Assembly: GCF_025943985.1 (NCBI RefSeq) | Contig: NZ_JAPCWE010000013.1 | Location: 1 to 64,000, forward strand | DNA length: 64,000 bases | Origin: Anaerorudis cellulosivorans | GTDB lineage: Bacteria; Bacteroidota; Bacteroidia; Bacteroidales; Dysgonomonadaceae | Reading direction: 5' to 3' | Translations under genes and position numbers: made by a program | In this document: positions 912 through 18,955 of the stretch, piece after piece | How positions within the stretch are numbered: position 1 is the stretch's first letter | How the letters are laid out: each line of letters opens with the position of its first letter | Notes under the pieces: generated by a model | The model's database searches: none | Seen by the model: the letters and a program-made list of their open reading frames with translations, nothing else | Told to the model about the DNA's origin: nothing

Positions 912-1541
912 CTAATCGGATTTTATTTTCTCTAATTTTTCTTTGGTGATAATTTGATTACTTTCTATTACTTTCACGGTAGGCGGATCTGAAAATTCAT
1001 ATCCTTTCAGCTCTCCGATAAGTCCGTCAAACTCATCAGATGTTGCAACAATTACCTTGTCAAGGCCGATTATATCACCTCTCTTGATTTTTTCTTTGGT
1101 ACCCTTTGCCTCATTTTCATCAAGTGTTATAAGATAACATAATGCTTTTCTATGCACATATTTTAGAGCGATCGCTTCCAAGTCTGCCTGCTTATATCTT
1201 TCTCTCAAACTTGTTTTTGCGCTAAAGCATATCGGGCCTCTTTCGTTTGCATAAAACATGAGATCGTACACTACATTTGGTACAAAGGCTACTTTTGCAC
1301 TTAAAAAAATAGGTAAAATTCCTTCTCTGACGCATAATGTAGCAAGAATATATTCGAATATTTTCCCGTTTAAATTATTGTTTCTTTCCGGATTTAAAGA
1401 ATATGCATCCCAATATTTTCGGACATATTGAGAAGGCATTTCGTATTCAATCTTCATGAAATCGGGAAATAAGCTATCGAAGATTGTTTCTGCTCTGTTG
1501 TTAACTCCAACGGTGATTCCGAGATCATTTAATTTTCCCAT
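912..1541 (-). CDS. probable type II restriction endonuclease
   Basis: This 209-residue protein is the likely cutting partner of the methyltransferase just upstream: its ATG shares one base with the methyltransferase stop (TAATG at 1543-1539), so the two are translationally coupled. A PD-(D/E)xK-like core can be proposed from Glu63 in a helix, Asp93 (VYDLMF) and Ser-Ala-Lys109, followed by a basic LRERYKQAD segment. The spacing Asp-15-SxK fits that fold, but the catalytic assignment is my inference. The size is close to that of known GGWCC-type and similar enzymes, yet specificity cannot be read from the sequence. The gene is visibly more AT-rich than the neighbouring housekeeping genes, as is common for transferred restriction systems. 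Confidence 0.65.
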   Translation of the reverse strand: MGKLNDLGITVGVNNRAETIFDSLFPDFMKIEYEMPSQYVRKYWDAYSLNPERNNNLNGKIFEYILATLCVREGILPIFLSAKVAFVPNVVYDLMFYANERGPICFSAKTSLRERYKQADLEAIALKYVHRKALCYLITLDENEAKGTKEKIKRGDIIGLDKVIVATSDEFDGLIGELKGYEFSDPPTVKVIESNQIITKEKLEKIKSD

Positions 1542-3217
1542 TATTTCGATATCAATTTTATAATTTCATTTGCAGTAGCTTGAATTGCAGGTACTGCAAC
1601 AGAATTTCCGAATTGTTTATATGCATAAACATCTGCAACAGGAATAACAAAATTATCAGGAAACCCTTGCAATCTCGCCCATTCTCTTGGTGTCATTCTC
1701 CTTATCCCTTGCCGATTTACTTCACCTTTAATTTTGGTTGTAGGAGTAAAATCGGTTATCCTGTCATCGTAGACCAAATTTCTTTCCCTGCCCATTCCGC
1801 CACATACCACAGCATTAGCAATTTGATCGTCAGAAATAATTTCGTAGCCGAAACCGTTGCCTTTATTTTTATGCCTCTCTTTGTGGAGTCTCAAGGTATG
1901 CAGATATTGTGTCGACAAATAATATTTCGTAGGAACAACGTTTTCTTCTTTTACATCGGCAAAAGTTACATTTCGATTTACAGATTCGGGATATTTGAAC
2001 TCGCTGACGCCTGTTTTTGGATGAAAACCCACAATAAAAATGCGTTCCCTGTTCTGTGGTACACCAAAATCTTTTGCATTGATGATTTTCGGCTCCGGAA
2101 CGAAATATCCCAAATCATTTCTCAAAACATTCAAAATAGTTTCTAATGTTCTTCCTTTATCATGATTTTTTAGCCCTTTTACATTCTCGAGAAAAATAGC
2201 TTTAGGCTGTTTTCTCCTGATGATTTCGGCAACATCAAAAAACAATGTACCCCTTGTATCCTCAAATCCTCCACGTTTACCTGCTATCGAAAAAGCTTGA
2301 CAGGGGAAACCTGCACACAAGATATCGAAATCGTCGGGGATATAACTTTTTGTTGATTCTTTTGTGATGTCTCCAAATGGAATTTCTCCGAAATTGGCTT
2401 TATAGGTACGCTTTGCTTCTTTATCCCATTCGCTGCTATATACACATTTTCCACCTAAATTTTGTAAAGCAATCCGAAAGCCTCCTATACCTGCAAACAA
2501 ATCTATAAACTTGAATTTAGGATTTTCAGGAGGAGGAAAAGGGACATCAAAAATCTCGAAAATACCATATTGCAAAGCTTCTTCAGCAACACCTGTCGAT
2601 ATTTCTTCTTCAGGATATTTATAACTCAATATTTCTTTTGTATATTCTATTGCCTCTTTTTTGTAAAATCGGGAAATTCCATTTTTTCGATTATGCAAAT
2701 AATGGGTAAAGGCTGCTTCCTTATCTCCCTCATCCTCGATCAATTTTATTTTTAATTTTATATCTCCGACTTCTTTTATGGATATTTTTTCTTTTAAATT
2801 CATTTTTAAAGCATTTATTTCGTTTTCAATTTGCAAAACACACTCCAACAAATTTTTTTCGATCTCTTTACTCCAAAAACGTAAAACCCGCCACCCTTCT
2901 TTGGTTAATTTTTCGTTTACCTCTTCGTCCCTTTGAATATTTCGTTCAATTTTTTGATACCAGAACTCTTTATTGGTTTTATGATCGTATTTCCTTTTTT
3001 CCCAATCTTTTCCATGCCAAAATTCACCATCGACAAAAATTGCCAGTTTAATTTTTTTAAAGGTTAAATCGGGCTTTCCAAAAACACTTTTGTCATTTTT
3101 TCGATAGCGATATCCGCGTACATGAAGCGCCTTTGCCAACATGATTTCGGGTTTTGTTCCTGTTGCTTTGTTGGCCTGCATGTTCTTTCTTCTTTGTTCT
3201 TTGGTAAGCTTGTCCAC
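1541..3217 (-). CDS. Vsr endonuclease fused to cytosine-C5 DNA methyltransferase
   Basis: This 558-residue protein joins two enzymes normally encoded apart. Residues 1-138 are a Vsr (very-short-patch repair) endonuclease: a TKPE helix, Asp50 in GKPDLTF, and the FWH triplet at 66-68. Vsr nicks beside T:G mismatches left when 5-methylcytosine deaminates. Residues about 236-558 are a C5 methyltransferase with motif I FAGIGG (241-246), motif IV PCQ (Cys306 is the attacking thiol), motif VI ENV (344-346), a QNRERIF motif VIII and a target-recognition region with a GNGFGY motif like that of Dcm-type enzymes. The linker of about 95 residues opens with Met139, where a separate methyltransferase could start. 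The restriction enzyme follows with a one-base overlap. Vsr zinc-ligand cysteines known from the E. coli enzyme are not conserved here. Confidence 0.93.
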   Translation of the reverse strand: MDKLTKEQRRKNMQANKATGTKPEIMLAKALHVRGYRYRKNDKSVFGKPDLTFKKIKLAIFVDGEFWHGKDWEKRKYDHKTNKEFWYQKIERNIQRDEEVNEKLTKEGWRVLRFWSKEIEKNLLECVLQIENEINALKMNLKEKISIKEVGDIKLKIKLIEDEGDKEAAFTHYLHNRKNGISRFYKKEAIEYTKEILSYKYPEEEISTGVAEEALQYGIFEIFDVPFPPPENPKFKFIDLFAGIGGFRIALQNLGGKCVYSSEWDKEAKRTYKANFGEIPFGDITKESTKSYIPDDFDILCAGFPCQAFSIAGKRGGFEDTRGTLFFDVAEIIRRKQPKAIFLENVKGLKNHDKGRTLETILNVLRNDLGYFVPEPKIINAKDFGVPQNRERIFIVGFHPKTGVSEFKYPESVNRNVTFADVKEENVVPTKYYLSTQYLHTLRLHKERHKNKGNGFGYEIISDDQIANAVVCGGMGRERNLVYDDRITDFTPTTKIKGEVNRQGIRRMTPREWARLQGFPDNFVIPVADVYAYKQFGNSVAVPAIQATANEIIKLISK

Positions 3218-15619: not shown

Positions 15620-16231
15620 CTATTTTACGGCAGACGGTGTAATCGATTGGGCTTTTTCCTTCACTTTATCCATGTTGAACAACAAAACGATAAGTCCTCC
15701 TATCCATACAAAAATCTTTATTTCTGTCGGATGGGGAAAAAACAGGCATAAGACAAAACACAGGGCAATAATCCCGGTGGGACCCCATACTCCATATTCC
15801 TTTCTGATAAAGCCCAACACAACAATTGCGGTAACAGCAAGAGCAACAAAAAATTCATAGGGAATAAAGAAAATATACATTCCCATGAGCACTGATGCTG
15901 CCCGCCCTCCCTTGAAATGATAATAGACCGGGAGTCCATGTCCCAAAATGGCACCCATTGCCAAACATCCCAAAGCAATATCGGAAAGATGAAAAAAATG
16001 CGAGGCAATGAGCATAGGGCCCAATGCTTTCATCGCATCTAACAGTCCGGCCACCACTCCCCAAAATTTGCTTACGTTTCTGAACACATTGTAAGCACCG
16101 GGATTACCGTTTCCCAACTCACGGATATTGACGTTTTTTACTAATCGGGTAATCAAATGGGCAAACAAAATCGACCCGATCAGATAGCCGGCAACAAAAC
16201 AAATTCCATATAAAAGAATCGGATTCTCCAT
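15620..16231 (-). CDS. plsY: acyl-phosphate:glycerol-3-phosphate acyltransferase
   Basis: PlsY is an integral membrane enzyme that moves a fatty acid from acyl-phosphate to glycerol-3-phosphate, the first step of phospholipid synthesis. The three conserved cytoplasmic loops can be read: GYLIGSILFA near 15-24, the glycine-rich GNGNPGAYNVFR near 40-51, and HGLPVYYHFKGGRAASVLMG near 99-118. Length (203) is usual. The gene follows fakA and fakB on the same strand with a nine-base gap to fakB. As FakA and FakB make acyl-phosphate, its substrate is supplied by its own operon partners. Confidence 0.95.
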   Translation of the reverse strand: MENPILLYGICFVAGYLIGSILFAHLITRLVKNVNIRELGNGNPGAYNVFRNVSKFWGVVAGLLDAMKALGPMLIASHFFHLSDIALGCLAMGAILGHGLPVYYHFKGGRAASVLMGMYIFFIPYEFFVALAVTAIVVLGFIRKEYGVWGPTGIIALCFVLCLFFPHPTEIKIFVWIGGLIVLLFNMDKVKEKAQSITPSAVK

Positions 16232-16240
16232 AAGCTGCTT

Positions 16241-17125
16241 TTATAAAAGAATTGAAACTCCGTATGCACCCGGACCGCAATACACTGCATCCACAAGTCC
16301 GGGTTTCCCAATGACAAGATCGTCACAGGGAAGTGCTTTAATTTTTTCTATCAACTCATTAGCAACATCTTTGTTTTTTTCGCCATATCCGCTCACGGGA
16401 ATAGCTCGCCGGATTTTCGATGCCGATTTTTCTTGCATCTTTGCTTTTATCAACTCTACAACCTGATTATTTACCTGTTTAAAGGTTCTTCCCTTACCTA
16501 AAGAAGAAACAATGCCTTCCGGGTCGTCTCCCATTATGCCGATTATCGGAATTATATGCAGTAAACTGCCCATCAGCGACTGAGCTCTTCCGATTCTGCC
16601 GCCTTTGTACAGGTAGTTTAAATCGGGAAAAATGTAATAACTGTAGGTATTTTCAACTACTTGTTGACATAATTTTTCGATTTCTTCTATACTCAAATCA
16701 TCGCTCTTTTTAATGAAATCGATGATGCCCAAAAGAACATTACCCACTCCAATTAAAGCTTGCCTGCTATCCACATTGATAATGGGAATTACATTTTCAT
16801 ATTGCTTTCGAACGTTTTCGGCTACTTTCCATGAAGCACTCGACAAGCCGCTGCTCATTACCACATGAATGATGAGGTCGTAATTTCGATAATTCCTTTC
16901 AACCGCTTCAACAACATCATTTTGTGGCAACGTGGATGATTTTGCCACAATATTTTCTTTTTCGAATTTGGATACCAGCCAATTCGCACTGTATTCGTCA
17001 CTCTCGCGATATTCTTTTCCATCTACCAGCACGGGAAATTTGATAATCTCAAGATCTTCGTAATCGATCTGATCCCTCGAGAGACCTAAATTATCGCCCA
17101 CAATGATAAAAATTTTCTTTTTCAT
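16241..17125 (-). CDS. DegV family fatty-acid-binding protein (FakB)
   Basis: This 294-residue DegV protein presents a bound fatty acid to the kinase FakA. The family signature residues that cradle the carboxylate are visible: a KSSTLP loop (usually TSQPS) and SSGLSSAS. The C-terminal lipid pocket region includes DLNYLYKGGRIGRAQSLMGSLLHIIPI. The first strand reads FIIVGDNLGL, where most members have a TDSS motif, so the entrance of the pocket differs. It lies 12 bases after fakA and nine before plsY. The acyl-chain preference cannot be judged. Confidence 0.88.
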   Translation of the reverse strand: MKKKIFIIVGDNLGLSRDQIDYEDLEIIKFPVLVDGKEYRESDEYSANWLVSKFEKENIVAKSSTLPQNDVVEAVERNYRNYDLIIHVVMSSGLSSASWKVAENVRKQYENVIPIINVDSRQALIGVGNVLLGIIDFIKKSDDLSIEEIEKLCQQVVENTYSYYIFPDLNYLYKGGRIGRAQSLMGSLLHIIPIIGIMGDDPEGIVSSLGKGRTFKQVNNQVVELIKAKMQEKSASKIRRAIPVSGYGEKNKDVANELIEKIKALPCDDLVIGKPGLVDAVYCGPGAYGVSILL

Positions 17126-17137
17126 ATGCTTTCGTTT

Positions 17138-18955
17138 TTATTCAAAGGTTATATAATAGTTGTAATTGTACTGGCCACCATAATATTCTTCAAAATCAGT
17201 ATCGGGGAACTGCTCTTTAAGGCGATCGACCAAGCCGTTCTCCTTACGTGAAGGCAGTCCTTTGTATAACGTAACAAGACCGCAACCGTTTGCCAATTGA
17301 CGAATCGCCTCAACGGCAAGCTCTTCCATGTTGGGATTCGAAAGAACGATTTTCTTTTTGTACACTGCAAAATAATCGTTTTTCCTCACCGTCATTTCGT
17401 TATCGGCAAGTACTTCGCGGTTGGCACGTGCAATGCCGCAGAAAGGGATGGTATTGATGTTCTTCATTGCTTCTTCAAACATGGTCATGATGTCATAATC
17501 TTTCGAAATACCCATCATCATGCCGATAAGGGCAATGGGATTATCCGATTCGACAATATAAACATTCGATTTGCAAAGCGAAACGGCATATTTCAATGCC
17601 ATAAGAATATCGCCATCGTCGGCAGCCGCAATGATGTTTTTGGCCTGCAAATTGTCGAGCCCCTTTGCCAATTGATCGACCGAAGGCTTATTTTTTCCGT
17701 AACACAATATATCGTCGGCCCCTAATTTTTGAAGTATTTCCGCAAAACCTTTTCCCGATACAATGCAAAATATACTTTTATCACGCCGGTAATCAATAAC
17801 ATCGTCGCTGATAAAGTTCCGATGTTGCTTTTTCATATCGTCAACCTTTGTGAAAACCAATTCGCCATAGGGTTGGACCCTATCAAAAATATCATCGGGT
17901 TTGTTGGTATGAATATGCACTTTAAATTTATTGCCTGCCTGAATAATAATGAGGCTGTCACCAAAAGCGGAGATCATTTCTCGCAGTTGTTCTTTGGAAG
18001 CAATTTTGTCGGATTCCAAAACAAATTCCGTACAGTATTTTTGCTTGATGTCCGGATTCCAAAGATTGTTTATTTCTTCGAGTTCATTGATAATTCTCTT
18101 CTGAAGCGTTTTTTTGCTGTTAACGTGATTGTTGACAGATAAATTGGTGGTTATTTTTCTTACATTCTGCAAAATTTCCTGCAGCCGACTGTTCTGTATT
18201 CTCGAAAAATCGATGTTGGAGATAAGATGAGCAAAAGGGGTATTTTTGAATTTGGATAATCTCATCTTGATATGTTTTCGGGTTGCTTTACCGATTTTCA
18301 GTAAAGTAGGAACCGATAAACCGTTTGTGCCGAAACCGTTATGCTGCAATTCTCTGTTTATTCCCTGAATAAAAACGACAAATCCGGCGCCGCCGGAATC
18401 GATAACACCGGCTTGTTTCAACACGGGAAGCATTTCGGGCGTTTGGTTTAGCACCTCTTTCAGGTAAGGAATGGTCTTGCTGATAATAACAATAGGATCT
18501 TCTTCCTCTTTCATCAACTCGGCATATTTTTCTTTTAAAGCCCGCATCAAGGTAAGCATGGTGCCTTCACGTGGATTTTCCGTGCCTTCATATGCATTTC
18601 GATAACCATTTTCGATGGCTCTATATACGTTTTGCTTCGAAAAATCGCTGTTTTTGACCACTTCGGCAAAACCTTGCATAAACAAAGACAAAATGACACC
18701 TGAACACCCTCTGCTGTTCAAAAGCATTTGTTCGGCAAAATTTTTCAAATACTCACCGGGCAACATGGATTGGTTTTCAAAATTCTTCATGTTAGCCATT
18801 GCTCCTTGAAGGGTCAGTACCATGTTTAAACCGGTATCTCCGTCGGGAACAGGAAAAACATTCAAGCTGTTTAAATATTCCTTGTGCTTGTTCAAATATC
18901 TGTGGATATTTTCTATCCGTTCATTAATCTCGTTAACGTCTATTTCGGTAGCCAT
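17138..18955 (-). CDS. fakA: fatty acid kinase catalytic subunit (DAK2 domain)
   Basis: The 605-residue protein phosphorylates a fatty acid held by FakB, using ATP, to give acyl-phosphate. Its N-terminal DAK2/DhaL domain has NVFPVPDGDTGLNM near 33-46, whose aspartates hold the two magnesium ions, NSRGCSGVILSLFMQGF, and the DSGGAGF loop near 196. A middle domain and a C-terminal DegV-related domain follow, as in Gram-positive YloV/FakA. It is somewhat longer than the usual 550 residues because of an insert around 230-300. First gene of the fakA-fakB-plsY unit. Confidence 0.9.
   Translation of the reverse strand: MATEIDVNEINERIENIHRYLNKHKEYLNSLNVFPVPDGDTGLNMVLTLQGAMANMKNFENQSMLPGEYLKNFAEQMLLNSRGCSGVILSLFMQGFAEVVKNSDFSKQNVYRAIENGYRNAYEGTENPREGTMLTLMRALKEKYAELMKEEEDPIVIISKTIPYLKEVLNQTPEMLPVLKQAGVIDSGGAGFVVFIQGINRELQHNGFGTNGLSVPTLLKIGKATRKHIKMRLSKFKNTPFAHLISNIDFSRIQNSRLQEILQNVRKITTNLSVNNHVNSKKTLQKRIINELEEINNLWNPDIKQKYCTEFVLESDKIASKEQLREMISAFGDSLIIIQAGNKFKVHIHTNKPDDIFDRVQPYGELVFTKVDDMKKQHRNFISDDVIDYRRDKSIFCIVSGKGFAEILQKLGADDILCYGKNKPSVDQLAKGLDNLQAKNIIAAADDGDILMALKYAVSLCKSNVYIVESDNPIALIGMMMGISKDYDIMTMFEEAMKNINTIPFCGIARANREVLADNEMTVRKNDYFAVYKKKIVLSNPNMEELAVEAIRQLANGCGLVTLYKGLPSRKENGLVDRLKEQFPDTDFEEYYGGQYNYNYYITFE

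Follow-up and report, generated by a model that had tools for sequence, protein, structure and literature searches.

A predicted fatty-acid kinase operon with a dedicated, remodelled PlsY relative in Anaerorudis cellulosivorans

The close association of a predicted fatty-acid kinase with a PlsY-family membrane protein in the Gram-negative Bacteroidales bacterium Anaerorudis cellulosivorans raises the question of whether this operon leads from free fatty acids to lysophosphatidate or delivers the acyl group to a different acceptor. The window (the whole stretch of DNA that was analysed, 64,000 nucleotides of contig NZ_JAPCWE010000013.1) carries fakA, fakB and a PF02660 gene, here called plsY', in that order on the minus strand:

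fakA, 17138..18955, minus strand: 605 aa, with the Pfam domains Dak2, FakA-like_M and FakA-like_C
fakA-fakB gap, 17126..17137, minus strand: 12 bases (7-23 bases in homologous loci)
fakB, 16241..17125, minus strand: 294 aa, Pfam DegV at 150 bits
fakB-plsY' gap, 16232..16240, minus strand: 9 bases (3-12 bases in homologous loci)
plsY' (the PF02660 gene), 15620..16231, minus strand: 203 aa, Pfam G3P_acyltransf at 110 bits

Open reading frames and Pfam matches agree with the coordinates, shared strand and gaps of 12 and 9 bases given in a preliminary description of this DNA. The Pfam matches of all three proteins are well above the gathering scores, and the NCBIfam equivalogs FakA_VfrB, FakB1 and PlsY are each reached only below cut-off. 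Sites resembling promoters or terminators occur around the operon at no higher frequency than in shuffled sequence. By profile search, the genome (an assembly of 2.8 Mb, 98.4% complete) encodes one DegV protein and one PF02660 protein. Elsewhere in the window, at 1541-3217, a single 558-aa ORF joins a Vsr mismatch endonuclease domain to a C5 cytosine DNA methylase.

The phylogenetic distribution of the three genes bears on whether they form a unit. The order fakA-fakB-plsY, with gaps of 3-23 bases, recurs in nine loci including the window; flanking genes are common only to the closest relatives, and farther out only the three genes are shared. The arrangement is therefore not due to chance, and the description of one operon joining FakA and FakB to a PlsY-family membrane protein in a Gram-negative Bacteroidales genome holds as that of a conserved unit. 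In a scan of named genomes, the triad was found in Paludibacteraceae, in other Bacteroidales and in two strains of Anaerophaga thermohalophila, as well as on one contig labelled Neomarinimicrobiota that is possibly mis-binned; on a Cloacimonadota contig, fakB-plsY' is present but fakA is not immediately upstream. Among named relatives, a Paludibacteraceae MAG is the closest, with a FakB that is 92% identical. Because the close form of FakB occurs in only 3 of 198 genomes sampled from the order (A. cellulosivorans, G112 and G050) and is absent from two genomes of A. cellulosivorans' own family, its distribution across the order is patchy. The distribution in Bacteroidota, which the preliminary description had proposed to check, thus extends to other Bacteroidales, but it is uneven, and a PlsY' above 110 bits was found only in A. 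cellulosivorans among 395 Bacteroidota sampled. The open-access literature searched yielded nothing on a fakAB-plsY operon in Bacteroidota, and the viral contigs searched contained no relative.

PlsY' was also found, at 149 bits or more, in 19 of 125 genomes of the phylum to which the Cloacimonadota record belongs. In nine of 19 loci from these genomes a fakB sequence adjoins plsY'; it looks full length in seven of them and is cut short in L131 and L132. In the other 10 no fakB adjoins plsY'. In L131, L132 and L142-L148, an intact plsY' stands beside an NtrC-type regulator and/or a Mut7-C gene while fakB is truncated or missing, which suggests that plsY' persists in those loci after fakB is lost.

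The kinase half of the operon is recognisable by homology. FakA matches Dak2 (108 bits), FakA-like_M (82.8 bits) and FakA-like_C (102 bits) in Pfam, which are laid out as a DhaL domain with the motif PDGDTG, a linker of about 100 residues, a FakA_M zinc domain and FakA_C, and its top PDB match is the FakA of S. suis (7w7h, 1.8e-66). Residues D38, D40, T41, G42 and N44 of the DhaL domain are invariant across 10 homologues, and C308, H347 and H349, a Cys plus His-x-His set in the middle domain, are invariant across 10 triad FakAs; from knowledge of the family, we take these last three to be zinc ligands. With kinase and zinc-site motifs both kept, FakA is predicted to be the catalytic subunit of a fatty-acid kinase. 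It resembles the FakA of Firmicutes (S. aureus, S. pneumoniae, S. suis, B. subtilis) in domain architecture and in catalytic and zinc residues, and differs from it in the long linker.

FakB1 structures head both the sequence and the fold matches of FakB (with 6nok and 7scl at the top of the fold search, E 2e-16), and the best matches of its AF2 model (pLDDT 71, low in the lid region) are FakB and DegV structures. When aligned to the known carboxylate network of Thr62, Ser95, Ser171 and His270, the latch Arg173 and the surface Arg205 (PMC8892158), FakB has an invariant S92, R177 and R213, and Ser or Thr at 63, across 12 homologues. The equivalent of Ser171 is Gly in A. cellulosivorans, and that of His270 is Tyr in the A. 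cellulosivorans group and His in L073, L077, L078 and L079. DegV proteins have an N-terminal motif of DST type; in FakB this motif is DNLGLS. Thus, FakB shares with the FakB of Firmicutes the DegV fold and most carboxylate-site residues, while its identity to FakB1 structures is about 20%, its N-terminal motif is altered and His270 has become Tyr; in further contrast to the Firmicutes systems, it is the single FakB of its genome and shares an operon with a PF02660 gene. Because the FakA motifs and most fatty-acid-binding residues of FakB are kept, the conversion of free fatty acid to acyl-phosphate by FakA and FakB, as originally described, is likely on grounds of homology and motif retention; among the binding residues, His270 is changed to Tyr and Ser171 to Gly. 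The accompanying statement that the system is best known from Gram-positive bacteria is in line with a review that presents FakAB as a Gram-positive strategy (PMC10146087).

A different form of the kinase is present elsewhere in the order. A DegV match lies inside a frame of about 460-650 aa in 26 of 198 Bacteroidales sampled, and in the two examined (L006:553-2352 and L007:331-2121) Dak2, FakA_M and a full DegV are fused into a one-protein FakA-FakB. These and other fused DhaL-FakA_M-DegV proteins have the fatty-acid kinase domains in the same order as the operon, but joined in a single polypeptide of about 600 aa, whose FakB motifs are canonical in L006; their FakB part is only 20-31% identical to the FakB of A. 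cellulosivorans, and they represent a different lineage of the system. In one genome (G062:C78, L006) about 1.6 kb separates the fused gene from the canonical plsY, possibly a separate fak-plsY association.

Gene neighbours in related loci are informative as to the source of the fatty acid. In L076 the order is patatin-fakA-fakB-plsY'-patatin, the first patatin gene overlapping the start of fakA (ATGA) and the second lying 26 bases after plsY', and in L137 a 4HBT thioesterase gene lies 71 bases after plsY'. Patatins and thioesterases release free fatty acids inside the cell. Since such neighbours could supply the kinase, recycling of fatty acids inside the cell and their import are equally plausible. 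The suggestion that the operon imports host lipids finds no support: the named relatives are mostly MAGs, with record titles that give no hint of a host, together with Anaerophaga, and the patatin and thioesterase neighbours of some loci fit internal recycling at least equally well.

The membrane protein departs from its namesake. PlsY' scores 110 bits against PF02660 (cut-off 24.1) but 89.3 bits against NCBIfam TIGR00023 (cut-off 137.2), for which three other members of its clade score 87-102 bits. Its AF2 model (pLDDT 72, no ligand) matches the A. aeolicus enzyme aaPlsY (5xj5) with a TM of 0.75 and Z of 17.1, and in comparison with 5xj5-5xj9 the seven-helix fold (Z 17), His92, Asn37 and the GG loop contributing to the acyl-phosphate hole are alike. 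Of the substrate-site residues defined for aaPlsY (PMC5700162), PlsY' keeps His92, Asn37 and Gly102-Gly103 (H98, G108 and G109 in its own numbering for the His and the glycines), whereas N41, Y47, R110, N186 and K189 stand in place of S35, T41, K104, H177 and N180. The acyl-phosphate hole is thus retained in its His and GG, with Thr41 changed to Tyr, while the glycerol 3-phosphate (G3P) clamp and 2-OH site (Ser35, Arg45, Lys104, Asn180, Ser142 and His177) reads N41, R51, R110, K189, Gly and N186. Only Arg45 (R51) of the phosphate clamp remains; the change of Lys104 to Arg is conservative, and Ser142, whose region is altered in PlsY', is weakly conserved even among PlsYs (53%). In the A. aeolicus enzyme, residual activity is 1.7% for H177N, 4.6% for N180A, and 4.8% for both T41A and S35A (PMC5700162).

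These replacements are shared within a distinct clade. The alignment of motif 3 is uncertain, most so for Cloacimonadota; as aligned, Asn occupies positions 35 and 177 in 11 of 11 Bacteroidota-type members, and position 180 is never Asn but Lys, Ala, Phe, Tyr or Leu across the clade. The Thr41 position is Tyr in PlsY' and Ala in some relatives, position 104 is Arg but Gln in L080, and at the Arg45 position some relatives have Lys, whereas fak-linked Cloacimonadota members and their sisters have Leu or Val. Canonical Bacteroidales PlsYs aligned alongside retain essentially all of these residues. In a maximum-likelihood tree, 49 canonical PlsYs form one group (support 98/97), and the Bacteroidota and Cloacimonadota members, with two highly divergent proteins, fall on one side of a 100/96 branch. 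Judged from these sequences, the consistency of the replacements at 35, 177 and 180 across the clade indicates functional change, not decay. Acceptor binding in PlsY' therefore quite probably differs from that in classical PlsY; that the acceptor is a molecule other than G3P is put at a little short of an even chance. A second Bacteroidota class of PF02660 paralogues (L101-L111, L113, L115, L122, L124-L126) forms a clade of its own, usually with Met or Arg at 41, mostly with Asp or Glu at 45 and with Leu at 106, and several of its genes adjoin DedA-like, purC and transketolase genes.

The distribution of other routes to lysophosphatidate is revealing in this context. PlsX (PF02504) has no match in the A. 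cellulosivorans genome. Across 198 genomes of the order, PF02660 was found in 120 and PlsX in 112, and profile search found neither in two relatives from the same family (G019, G133), so the A. cellulosivorans lineage must make lysophosphatidate through another enzyme. The A. cellulosivorans genome encodes PlsC, a GlsA-like protein and a 405-aa PF01553 protein with an NHRDxxxD-like motif, the last being a candidate glycerol-3-phosphate acyltransferase; this protein (G000:C2, locus L068:1021-2238) has no NCBIfam name, and sequence search found no solved structure for it. Four triad genomes (G112, G201, G202, G203) carry canonical PlsY and PlsX besides PlsY', as does G208, where fakA lies at a contig end; G206 has canonical PlsY in addition, and seven genomes have PlsY' alone. 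Because some genomes carry canonical PlsY too and the family relatives carry neither protein, PlsY' is probably not the essential G3P acyltransferase. The idea that PlsY' stands in for a missing PlsY was considered and is weakened by the same two groups of genomes.

Taken together, we lean slightly towards the reading that the operon is a FakAB acyl-phosphate unit with a dedicated PlsY' acyltransferase, whose acceptor site has been rebuilt and whose acceptor is possibly not G3P. FakB would bring a free fatty acid, taken up or freed by internal lipases or thioesterases, to FakA, which would phosphorylate it while FakB-borne. The membrane protein PlsY' would then bind the acyl-phosphate in its conserved phosphate hole and transfer the acyl group. 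Since the acceptor site is rebuilt, the acceptor is probably not G3P held in the usual way, and may be another lipid precursor. Counting against this reading, the pocket is still basic, with R45 kept, K104 changed to Arg and N180 to Lys, and could accommodate G3P, or a different phosphate ester, with a changed geometry. Of the full path to lysophosphatidate originally proposed for this operon, the kinase half thus stands by homology, while the last step is doubtful in a PlsY' without most of the G3P site, and the label self-contained is not supported as stated.

The alternative that PlsY', despite an atypical pocket, genuinely acylates G3P and the operon makes lysophosphatidate is unlikely but carries real weight. 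It draws on the PlsY fold, on Arg45 and the basic residue at 104, on the position of PlsY' as the sole PF02660 protein of a 98.4% complete genome without PlsX, and on the coupling of FakAB and PlsY in lysophosphatidate synthesis, which has been demonstrated in vitro with B. subtilis proteins (PMC13400652). However, several of the replaced key residues are crippling as single changes in aaPlsY, fak-linked Cloacimonadota members have Leu or Val in place of Arg45, four triad genomes also have canonical PlsY and PlsX, and the family relatives live without any PF02660 protein.

It is improbable that PlsY', instead of being an acyltransferase, regulates the pool of acyl-phosphate as an acyl-phosphate hydrolase, a sensor or a membrane partner of FakB. 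Such a role would suit the retained acyl-phosphate side, the variety of residues (K, A, F, Y or L) on the acceptor side at position 180 and the 12 of 19 Cloacimonadota loci in which plsY' has no adjacent fakB or lies by a truncated one, but the nearly invariant Asn 35, Asn 177 and Arg 104 of the Bacteroidota group suggest a specific second ligand. Still further removed is the chance that the DegV protein binds another carboxylic acid and the operon does not serve ordinary fatty acids: the DNLGLS in place of a DST-type motif and the Tyr at His270 point that way, against which FakB retains the carboxylate-binding Ser and Ser/Thr as well as the latch and surface arginines, His is present in some relatives, and a patatin lipase and a thioesterase adjoin some loci.

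For the favoured acyltransferase reading, gene neighbourhoods suggest one kind of acceptor. In Anaerophaga, genes for a GNAT-like protein, a 3-ketosphinganine-reductase-like SDR and a serine palmitoyltransferase (669.5 bits, cut-off 640) begin 1.2 kb beyond plsY' on the opposite strand. The same GNAT family, for whose member here sequence search found no solved structure, lies immediately upstream of plsY' in three Cloacimonadota genomes, adjoins another divergent PF02660 class in two genomes and neighbours serine palmitoyltransferase in G050 and G203. This further class (L152:1492-2088, L156:1501-2103; motif G[ST]GHPDTQN) is a third, highly divergent one, beside the GNAT-like protein of serine palmitoyltransferase clusters. 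A link to sphingolipids by phylogenetic profile was set aside: nearly all genomes tested have serine palmitoyltransferase, among them A. cellulosivorans, relatives that lack PlsY' and most Cloacimonadota whether or not they carry PlsY', and its co-occurrence does not discriminate. The adjacency is suggestive, a lead and not a finding. Tentatively, PlsY' may represent an unrecognised family of acyl-phosphate-dependent acyltransferases that use something other than glycerol phosphate as acceptor, perhaps a sphingoid base or a different amino or hydroxy lipid; the open-access literature searched contained nothing on PlsY paralogues with other acceptors.

To our knowledge, acyl-phosphate has essentially one known role, that of acyl donor to glycerol-3-phosphate in the PlsY reaction. 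FakAB and PlsY are themselves known; what is new is the pairing, in one operon, of FakAB with a remodelled PlsY relative dedicated to it. If the proposed role is correct, PF02660 genes would be over-annotated as PlsY, and Gram-negative anaerobes would activate free fatty acids by FakAB, beyond acyl-CoA and acyl-ACP synthetases. Acyl-phosphate chemistry would then serve lipids other than phosphatidate, and the fatty-acid kinase would be the activation step for a non-phosphatidate lipid in Bacteroidota and Cloacimonadota.
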